39,382 nt of DNA, taken from contig JAHDQK010000053.1 in assembly GCA_018433885.1 (NCBI GenBank), positions 1-39,382 on the forward strand, in the 5' to 3' direction. Both the position numbers and the translations under genes were made by a program. Numbering within the stretch: the first letter of the stretch is position 1; each line of letters starts with the position of its first letter. The notes beneath the pieces are model-generated. The model worked only from the letters and a program-made list of their open reading frames with translations. It was not told where the DNA came from and ran no database searches. Source of the DNA: Candidatus Cloacimonadota bacterium (GTDB lineage: Bacteria > Cloacimonadota > Cloacimonadia > Cloacimonadales > Cloacimonadaceae). Below are positions 214 through 39,249 of this stretch, piece by piece.

Positions 214-299
214 GCCCATTCATCAAAGCAGTCTTCATGGCGTGCTTTAGCAGTCTGTACTGCTGCACGACTCCAGGGCAATCGCTTTGGGGAATGGGC
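214..299. repeat. Foldable intergenic element, copy 1
   Basis: The segment folds on itself in layers. GCCCATTC (214-221) pairs with GAATGGGC (292-299). Then, across a 2x2 internal loop, CAAAGC (224-229) pairs with GCTTTG (284-289). Inside, CGTGC (241-245) pairs with GCACG (265-269), and AGCAGT (249-254) pairs with ACTGCT (259-264) around a 4-nt loop. A second copy with the same outer stem and the same GCAGT/ACTGC core lies at 37116-37201. It could be a structured RNA, a MITE-like element or a complex terminator. The orientation is unknown. Confidence 0.55.
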
Positions 300-20501: not shown

Positions 20502-20530
20502 GCTGTTTCGAGTTGCCGGAAAGTATCCAC

Positions 20531-20565
20531 GCCGTTTCCAAGCAGTAGCACTGCATCAAAACGGC
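20531..20565. repeat. Symmetric nested hairpin
   Basis: GCCGTTT (20531-20537) pairs with AAACGGC (20559-20565), and GCAGT (20542-20546) pairs with ACTGC (20550-20554). The two stems are separated by 4 nt on both sides, and the loop is 3 nt. The GCAGT/ACTGC core is shared with the elements at 214-299 and 37116-37201, but the outer CCCATTC stem is absent here. Confidence 0.45.
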
Positions 20566-20696
20566 ATGAAGACAACTATGCGACCGCCTGCGCTAATGGG
20601 GGAGAGCTGAGAAAGCACCGGCAAAGCGCACATATTCCGAGGGTACTTCTGCCTTCTATGAATAGCTCGTGGAAGATAACCGGTTTCTCATGGCAC

Positions 20697-37115: not shown

Positions 37116-37201
37116 ACCCATTCATCAAACCTATCTGGAAGCTTGGTCTGTGCAGTACGAACTGCAACAAGGTAGCTTCGCCACTGCTTCGCGGAATGGG
37201 T
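37116..37201. repeat. Foldable intergenic element, copy 2
   Basis: ACCCATTC (37116-37123) pairs with GAATGGGT (37194-37201); inside, CTTG (37142-37145) pairs with CAAG (37168-37171) and TGCAGT (37151-37156) with ACTGCA (37161-37166) around a 4-nt loop. The 86-nt length and the positions of the anchors equal copy 1 at 214-299. The outermost pair changed from G-C to A-T, and the closing inner pair from A-T to T-A, so base pairing is kept while the bases differ. Overall identity of the 83 nt between conserved anchors is about 61% by my count. Confidence 0.5.
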
Positions 37202-37284
37202 GGAGGTTTGAGGAAAGCTCTGGATTGCAGACACCTAACCCTTAAAAGTATCGTTTTGATGCGCCATTCTGCCGCGTCCACATA

Positions 37285-37307
37285 AAAGCCCCGCCAGGGG
37301 CGACACC
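37285..37307. repeat. Short palindromic repeat unit A (GCCCC..GGGGCGACAC)
   Basis: GCCCC (37288-37292) and GGGGC (37297-37301) form a 5-bp hairpin with a 4-nt loop, flanked by AAA and followed by GACACC. A related unit lies at 37371-37390. Confidence 0.45.
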
Positions 37308-37320
37308 GATTATAGCGAGA

Positions 37321-39249
37321 GTGCGTAGCTTAAGCGAAACCCCTCGTAAGGTGCGGACGCACACCCCCAAAAAGCCCTTCTGGGCGACACAAATACTGGA
37401 AACCATTATTATATCCCGTATCAGGTGGCAACCAAAATATAGTGATTTGAGAGCAATTCACGTAGAAGGTGATTCACACCTTAAGATTAGTAACAATATA
37501 ATTACTAAATATCCAATTGCTATAAGCAATAATGGTCAATTATCGTCGAATAGCATCATCAAGAACTGCTTGTTCTGGCAGAATGCCACGAACTTCATGG
37601 GCAGCCCTTACGATGTTACGGTCAATCCAGGATCATGCTTCTTTACTGATCCACAGATAACTGAAGATTATCACCCAATTTGGAATACAAACACAAAATC
37701 CCCTTGTATTGATAACGGAGACCCCGACCTGAATGCTAATGGAATTCCCTGGTACCTGGACCCCGAAGACCAGGACTCCGATGGAACCCGCAAGGACATT
37801 GGGGCATATCACAACCCTGCTCAACACATTAACGGTTATCATCGGCTATACAACTATGAGGTAAAGTACATCAGCATACCTGGAGTGGAAAACCATCCCG
37901 GCAATCAGGGTAGAAATACACTTCAGTACGTGTTTGATCTTCATCAAGGAAATAACTTATTAACAATGGACCCTCCCATCCTTGATCGTATAACCTGGAT
38001 TTACAATTCGGATACAGGTGAAGCGACACCGTTTGATACTCCCGTACACTATGTACATAGTCAGAACGGCTACAAGGTGAAACTGCTTTTTGGCGAGACC
38101 TTGGAGAAGGATATCGTGTATAGCGGGTTCTATCCCGGTTACACCCTAAATCCTGGCATGTATCATGCTGAGCTGAATGATTATACTACGAAGCACTTCA
38201 TCACGGCTCCGGATCAATTAGACGGCAATTGTGAGATCGATCCGAATACGGGAGTTCTGTTCAGGGAAACATATCTGGGATACTACCTTCCGGAAAGCCT
38301 GAAACCGTTTGATGCCCTGCTGCCCATACTTAATGATATCAAGGCAATACTGGCAGAGGACTGGGCATTGGTTCGGATACCCATCTTTGGCTATGATCCT
38401 CAACCGGGAGATCCCCCATCTGCTTACTACACAGATCTATGGTTGGGATCATACCTCATGAACAATGAAAACCTTGCCATAAATCACGGAGAAATGGTTG
38501 TGGTTCATTACATTGGAACCAATGATGTAGAATTCAAGCTTGGAGGCGATAATCCGAACCCGCCCTTTACTGATTCATATACAAGGGAAATGACTAAACA
38601 CTTCACTTACGAGGAACAGCTTGGATACATCCCTGTGTTTATCACCATGGATTTAAACCAATATGAAGATGGCAACAAGCCTACAGAAATTGCGCTGTTT
38701 ATCGATGAAGTATGCAAAGGGGCTGCTGTTATCAAAGATGGTGAAATCCAGCTTAATGCTTACATCACTAACGGAGATGACCTATCCGATGATTTGAAGG
38801 AAGTGGAGTTTCGCTTGTATTTTCCTGCCAAGTCAGCTAGTTCCATAGTTCCAGAATACGCTGTCTTTAACTTACAAACCGGAGTCTATGAATCTAAGAC
38901 AGCAAGAGTATCAGATTTCAAAGGATTCCTTAGGGTGCAGTTAACAAAAACGGGCGAGGTACTACCCCCCGCAGCAACTCAACTATTCCAGAACTATCCA
39001 AATCCCTTCAATCCGGTTACATCGATCAAGTATGATCTGGCAGAAAACAGCCAGGTGAGAATGGATATCTTCAACGTCAAGGGGCAACTCGTGAAAACAC
39101 TTCTGAATCAAGAAATGCTTGCCGGGACCCACAGCGTGATCTGGGATGGCAAAGATGGTCAAGGAAGATCTGTGTCCTCCGGTGTTTACTTCTACCGGAT
39201 GAGCTTGCCAAACAAGGTCTTGACAAATAAAATGCTACTGTTGAAATAG
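37321..39249 (+). CDS. 5'-truncated beta-helix surface protein with C-terminal sorting-like domain (likely gene remnant)
   Basis: The open frame of 642 codons begins with GTG in the repeat region, has no ribosome site and no signal peptide, and its first 25-30 residues translate the repeats. Real protein begins after about 37390 with beta-helix rungs (LKISNNIITKYPIAISNNGQ, NSIIKNCLFWQN) that end in a typical SPCIDNGDPDLNANG/RKDIGAYH cap (about residues 135-170). The middle (about 170-550) is of unclear family. The last 85 residues carry the sorting-like domain YPNPFNPVTSIKYDL to GVYFYRM. In a second frame upstream the sequence also reads NTGNHYYIPYQVATKI, suggesting a frameshift near 37435. 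The gene seems to have lost its 5' part at the repeat junction. Confidence 0.6.
   Translation: MRSLSETPRKVRTHTPKKPFWATQILETIIISRIRWQPKYSDLRAIHVEGDSHLKISNNIITKYPIAISNNGQLSSNSIIKNCLFWQNATNFMGSPYDVTVNPGSCFFTDPQITEDYHPIWNTNTKSPCIDNGDPDLNANGIPWYLDPEDQDSDGTRKDIGAYHNPAQHINGYHRLYNYEVKYISIPGVENHPGNQGRNTLQYVFDLHQGNNLLTMDPPILDRITWIYNSDTGEATPFDTPVHYVHSQNGYKVKLLFGETLEKDIVYSGFYPGYTLNPGMYHAELNDYTTKHFITAPDQLDGNCEIDPNTGVLFRETYLGYYLPESLKPFDALLPILNDIKAILAEDWALVRIPIFGYDPQPGDPPSAYYTDLWLGSYLMNNENLAINHGEMVVVHYIGTNDVEFKLGGDNPNPPFTDSYTREMTKHFTYEEQLGYIPVFITMDLNQYEDGNKPTEIALFIDEVCKGAAVIKDGEIQLNAYITNGDDLSDDLKEVEFRLYFPAKSASSIVPEYAVFNLQTGVYESKTARVSDFKGFLRVQLTKTGEVLPPAATQLFQNYPNPFNPVTSIKYDLAENSQVRMDIFNVKGQLVKTLLNQEMLAGTHSVIWDGKDGQGRSVSSGVYFYRMSLPNKVLTNKMLLLK
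37371..37390. repeat. Short palindromic repeat unit B (GCCC..GGGCGACAC)
   Basis: GCCC (37374-37377) and GGGC (37382-37385) form a hairpin with a 4-nt loop, again in the frame AAA-stem-GACAC. Between units A and B there is another inverted pair, GTGCGT/ACGCAC (37321-37326/37357-37362). It looks like a REP-type intergenic repeat, and the damaged surface-protein gene begins right after unit B. Confidence 0.45.

Follow-up and report, generated by a model that had tools for sequence, protein, structure and literature searches.

A fixed-length modular dyad repeat with regular spacing along a Cloacimonadota chromosome, and its counterparts in two sister species

The stretch of DNA analysed here (39,382 nucleotides, hereafter the window) belongs to a Candidatus Cloacimonadota bacterium and corresponds to contig 6 of the 91 that make up its draft genome of 2.42 Mb. 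It raises a simple question: what kind of element would occur near both ends of one contig with the same length and the same arms, and so little sequence in common? The two copies were found where a preliminary description, made from the letters alone, had placed them. They are of equal length, have CCCATTC/GAATGGG and GCAGT/ACTGC arms in common and are of low pairwise identity (0.60), as had been noticed. Both also fold better than dinucleotide shuffles: copy 1 reaches -39.5 and -39.3 kcal/mol (z -4.5 on the + strand and -6.2 on the - strand) and copy 2 reaches -27.8 and -31.8 kcal/mol (z -2.3 and -3.9). The statement that the element is not a terminator holds: there is no T-run, and sites of the family are also located between divergent genes. 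No tRNA was found at the two window copies. A third, degenerate copy lies 20.3 and 16.6 kb from copies 1 and 2. The coordinates of all these features are given in Table 1.

Table 1. Copies of the 84-bp site in the window, component parts of copy 1, and a neighbouring repeat
Feature	Position	Strand	Basis or remark
Copy 1 of the 84-bp site	214-299 (core 215-298, one flanking base per side)		covariance model, 69.8 bits
Left cap CCCATT	215-220	+	sequence; logo of 164 arms
Heptamer 1 AAGCAGT	226-232	+	11-bp spaced units
Heptamer 2 ATGGCGT	237-243	+	11-bp spaced units
Heptamer 3 TAGCAGT	248-254	+	11-bp spaced units
Mirror heptamer 3 (ACTGCTG on +)	259-265	-	11-bp spaced units
Mirror heptamer 2 (ACTCCAG on +)	270-276	-	11-bp spaced units
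Mirror heptamer 1 (ATCGCTT on +)	281-287	-	11-bp spaced units
Right cap AATGGG	293-298	-	logo
Copy 3, degenerate, about midway in the 36.9-kb gap	20507-20600 (best model match 20522-20574)		27.2 bits, E 8e-4
Copy 2 of the 84-bp site	37116-37201 (core 37117-37200, one flanking base per side)		covariance model, 64.4 bits
Distinct dispersed repeat, not part of the site	37262-37402	+	tends to adjoin 84-bp sites

The internal organisation of the site was analyzed on many copies. Each arm comprises a cap, CANNCCCATT, and then three AWGCNGT heptamers in direct orientation at intervals of 11 bp, and the opposite arm mirrors this order around a centre of 4 bp. The logo of 164 arms displays CA at -4/-3, the cap CCCATT, then AAGCART, AWGCNGT and AWGCAGT, with heptamer starts 11 bp apart and less conserved spacers. 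The self-match of an arm is 0.47 at a lag of 11 bp, compared to 0.19-0.28 at other lags. The preliminary description had considered that pairing was kept rather than sequence, on the strength of double changes at paired positions. These changes are indeed present between copies 1 and 2, but they do not amount to covariation once many copies are compared. Among 34 copies the covariation score is 0.137 (0.139 in shuffles) and 70.1% of the symmetric cells pair, which is what shuffles give (70.2%), and the idea of conserved pairing is not supported. With 76 non-redundant copies the z score of Watson-Crick pairing is -1.5, and the two arms match at 24.9 of 40 positions within a copy compared to 25.2 of 40 between copies. 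The site is foldable because both arms match one half-site consensus. The symmetry resides in this consensus, which fits the expectation for a predicted double-stranded binding site. Two known classes were rejected: a structured RNA family, since no Rfam family matches the element and no covariation was seen, and an integron attC site (R'/R'' boxes, GTTRRRY type), the ends being CCCATT/AATGGG in nearly all copies.

Further copies are numerous in this genome, and the same design was found in two relatives. The pattern CCCATTC-N{55,85}-GAATGGG matches 15 times per strand (13 true 84-bp copies, one 95-bp variant and one chance match) and the reversed control pattern does not match at all. Using a covariance model (R1) built from an alignment (A1) of 34 copies, we identified 94 distinct sites, and the addition of nine weaker copies brings the family to at least 100. 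Their lengths are distributed as follows: 82 sites are 84 bp long, seven are 95 bp long (84+11), three are 82 bp long and two are partial, the share of 84-bp copies being somewhat biased by a model seeded with exact-length copies and the excess of the +11 variant being free of this bias. The 95-bp copies owe their greater length to one additional array unit of 11 bp, such as AAGCAGGTTTG in C16:25224. Copies otherwise diverged to about 64% identity still agree in length (84) and in motif positions. With ORF-based gene calls, 74 of the 94 copies are outside predicted ORFs and the remaining 20 overlap mostly short ones, on which ground a coding repeat (84 = 28 codons) was rejected. The sites are intergenic, and the flanking genes are found in all orientations. 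No description of the family was found in the open-licence literature.

Two observations concern the surroundings of the sites. The dispersed repeat that closes Table 1 is intergenic, is made of two GC-rich hairpin-like blocks and has the end GGGCGACAC; 26 of its 38 matches in the genome are at most 400 bp from an 84-bp site, where 1.4 were expected, as if it targeted these sites. At contig ends (e.g. C62, C64 and C67), 18 sites are present within 1 kb compared to 4.9 expected. Several site-bearing contig ends have 138-146 bp in common, with some identical 141-mers, which suggests that repeats beside the sites interrupt the assembly.

The distribution of the sites along the chromosome was measured within contigs of the draft assemblies, and the contigs of this genome with at least two sites give 48 gaps. 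The smallest is 9,050 bp, the median is 16.7 kb and a distance of 11-20 kb is typical, with a site about every 10-20 kb. Not one of the 48 gaps is shorter than 9 kb, compared to 18.1 expected by uniform placement, and each of 2000 simulations of such placement gave at least nine gaps of this kind. A search for weaker copies, which covered most of the largest gaps, yielded the nine already counted, copy 3 of the window included, none of which is closer than 10.9 kb to a neighbouring site (two of them weak, E 0.15 and 0.6). With these copies there are 57 gaps with a CV of 0.36; the search gave none in C87:57.9-89.6 kb or C79:6.5-38.9 kb. Gene layout does not account for the spacing: intergenic regions of at least 110 bp occur every 5.2 kb, and a random choice among them leaves 49% of the gaps below 9.05 kb.

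To what extent the family extends to other genomes was examined in 60 relatives. R1 gave strong matches only in the genome of the window; in G006 and in G003 it had one weak match each. These two genomes of the same genus (one contig of G003 exactly matches Cloacimonetes bacterium UBA5210 in a public collection) repeat the design of the window's genome in other letters, with the unit AAGC(C/T)GTTATC; the G006 copies are 106 bp long, with CCCTTT/AAAGGG caps. A generic pattern allowing at most two mismatches matched only these two genomes and that of the window (control 0) and had no match in viral contigs. The family is absent from nine other genomes of the genus and from 48 further relatives. 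The genus does not depend on the family, which is present in only 3 of the 12 same-genus genomes tested, with letters specific to each species. The spacing recurs in both relatives: G006 carries at least 107 sites, whose spacing has its mode at 8-10 kb, and, among the sites listed, none of its 56 gaps is under 5 kb (17 expected); in G003 the gaps among the sites listed start at 6.4 kb. Site positions differ for the most part between species, orthology being near chance in the subset of sites compared, and three site pairs of that subset have both neighbouring genes in common between species. In one of these pairs, G006:C4:33424 and G003:C58:153454, both sites lie between a C25-peptidase-like and a permease-like gene (names assigned by eye). 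We also observed in G003 a short version of 60 bp with two units per arm (L123:9944-10003, AAGCTGTCTTG AAGCTGT...), and in G011 near-tandem copies of CACCCCACAAAATCGCTGCACGATTCTGTGGGG hairpins (L135:2047-2631).

The G006 copies provide a clue to how the sites are spread. They are 82-89% identical, which suggests a recent amplification, and 23 of them lie midway in a MITE whose terminal repeats are CTAGTGTCATGTCAAG / CTAGTGACTCGTCAAGG and whose two edges both carry CTAG. In the loci L162-L201 the MITE ends read CTAGTGTCATGTCAAG.../...CCTTGACGAGTCACTAG, with the core in mid-element, and other G006 cores are bordered by different ends (TTATTTTAACAGAGATAGATAGCATAGGTG; GTCAAATGG) or by none. The core, about 90 bp from the MITE ends, is thus not the end of the MITE. 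Among the 23 embedded copies the core is mostly 92-96% identical and gapless, the MITE arms are for the most part 64-72% identical and gapped, and the identity of the core depends little on that of the flanks, which points to a constraint on the core, or to its homogenisation, after insertion. Left-flank and right-flank relationships are uncorrelated among these copies. Around the cores of the window's genome terminal repeats beyond the core were not seen, and some site pairs have flanks in common. As for mobilising enzymes, the Y1 transposase PF01797 has no match in that genome (the E. coli control was positive) and the Tn3 transposase PF01526 has none in five genomes; the TniB-family profile PF05621, taken as a marker of Tn7/Mu-type immunity (a TnsC/MuB-type ATPase), is unspecific and uninformative, matching 13 of 14 control genomes as well. 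A REPIN/RAYT system was rejected on the lack of a Y1 (HUH) transposase in the window's genome and of maintained hairpin pairing, and a Tn3-family element with immunity on the PF01526 result.

What has to be accounted for is a modular architecture of fixed length with independent arms, spaced along the chromosome, recurrent in two sister species and carried by MITEs in G006. Our tentative preference goes to a spaced chromosomal lattice of predicted protein-binding sites, seeded by mobile elements. The 84-bp site would be the double-stranded, dyad-symmetric target of a candidate oligomeric DNA-binding protein, each arm offering three direct 11-bp units (heptamer plus 4 bp) and the arms standing head-to-head between their caps. 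Since 84 bp correspond to about 8 helical turns, all units would face nearly one side, and a protein filament or ring might assemble on each site. Such a predicted site would explain the 11-bp units, the dyad, the fixed length and the independent arms. Protein binding, oligomerisation and a chromosomal role are inferred: jointly the sites may act as spaced anchors in nucleoid organisation, as a domain boundary or in segregation. New sites would be supplied by MITE-type elements carrying the core, the core being retained after insertion while the remaining MITE decays.

The self-spacing in itself has to come from one of two causes: a lattice of anchors is selected for, or insertions close by are excluded. 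The former is moderately favoured on two grounds: the type of flanking end makes no difference to the spacing, and the core persists in MITEs whose flanks decay. Against it, the poor positional conservation between species is unexpected for a pure housekeeping lattice, and the conservation of the core within MITEs could also reflect a constraint of mobility. The more precise proposal that the lattice, with a site every ~8-20 kb, organises the nucleoid through mobile reseeding and a co-evolving protein is rather doubtful; reseeding together with a co-evolving reader protein would be the reason why letters and positions of the sites turn over between sisters.

Exclusion of nearby insertions is the core of a serious rival, in which binding of an enzyme or regulator to one copy would prevent insertion in its vicinity. 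The element would then be a non-autonomous mobile repeat (MITE- or REPIN-like), its dyad arrays being recognition sites of the mobilising enzyme and its spacing a consequence of target immunity. This is a real possibility, in line with the species-specific letters and mostly turned-over positions, with the recent-looking amplification and the MITE-borne copies of G006, and with the site pairs of the window's genome that share flanks. It is less easily reconciled with a core located in mid-MITE and bordered elsewhere by other ends or none, with a length and motif positions kept despite sequence divergence, and with a genome in which neither Y1 nor Tn3 transposase was matched. Improbable, in our opinion, is the site of a site-specific recombinase, where exchange would swap the flanks and deletions between close pairs would remove the short gaps. 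G006 cores with mixed end types on their two sides, the neighbours of C14:56952 and C14:35243, each split between two sites in a relative, and the uncorrelated flanks of MITE copies speak for it, but star-like divergence likewise gives no flank correlation and the number of shared neighbours is estimated to be near chance. Lastly, the preliminary description was right in seeing a repeated, selected-looking, dyad-symmetric element, but its selected RNA or single-stranded DNA hairpin is largely refuted and very improbable, the good folding of both window copies being outweighed by the lack of covariation in 34 or 76 copies and of any Rfam match, and by the consistently mismatched arms of the G006 MITE copies, where AAGC units are opposite CGAT units.

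The usual view of dispersed palindromic repeats in bacteria is that they lie in clusters or at random, and what they do is a matter of dispute. A self-distancing family of fixed length and independent arms is a measurable signal, replicated between species, that spacing is governed throughout the genome, either by a host protein or by a mechanism of immunity, and whether such repeats organise the chromosome becomes directly testable. REP, BIME and REPIN (RAYT) elements are likewise short intergenic palindromes with about 100 copies per genome and species-specific families, but the present genome has no Y1 transposase and the 84-bp site is not selected as a hairpin. Its arms are arrays of 11-bp units, and it is regularly spaced without clusters; REPs, in contrast, occur clustered and as tandem arrays (PMC3116915). 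MITEs and similar small mobile repeats, ERIC, RUP and BOX among them, come close in that some G006 copies reside in a MITE that has terminal repeats and is edged by CTAG; unlike them, the 84-bp sites have a fixed length and an exclusion distance, the core is not the MITE end and the copies of the window's genome show no terminal repeats beyond the core. The BOX elements of pneumococcus are also modular. ParR-type proteins bind plasmid centromeres with 11-bp direct repeats, and what the 84-bp site has in common with these centromeres is its tandem units of 11 bp, which would suit an oligomeric DNA-binding protein; it differs by its head-to-head three-unit arms and its ~100 chromosomal sites. 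Finally, MatS, Noc and SlmA sites are chromosome-organising, short (12-20 bp) and sequence-specific, with tens of dispersed copies. The 84-bp sites are likewise dispersed, sequence-specific and chromosomal, but they are composite, keep a minimum spacing and turn over rapidly between species.
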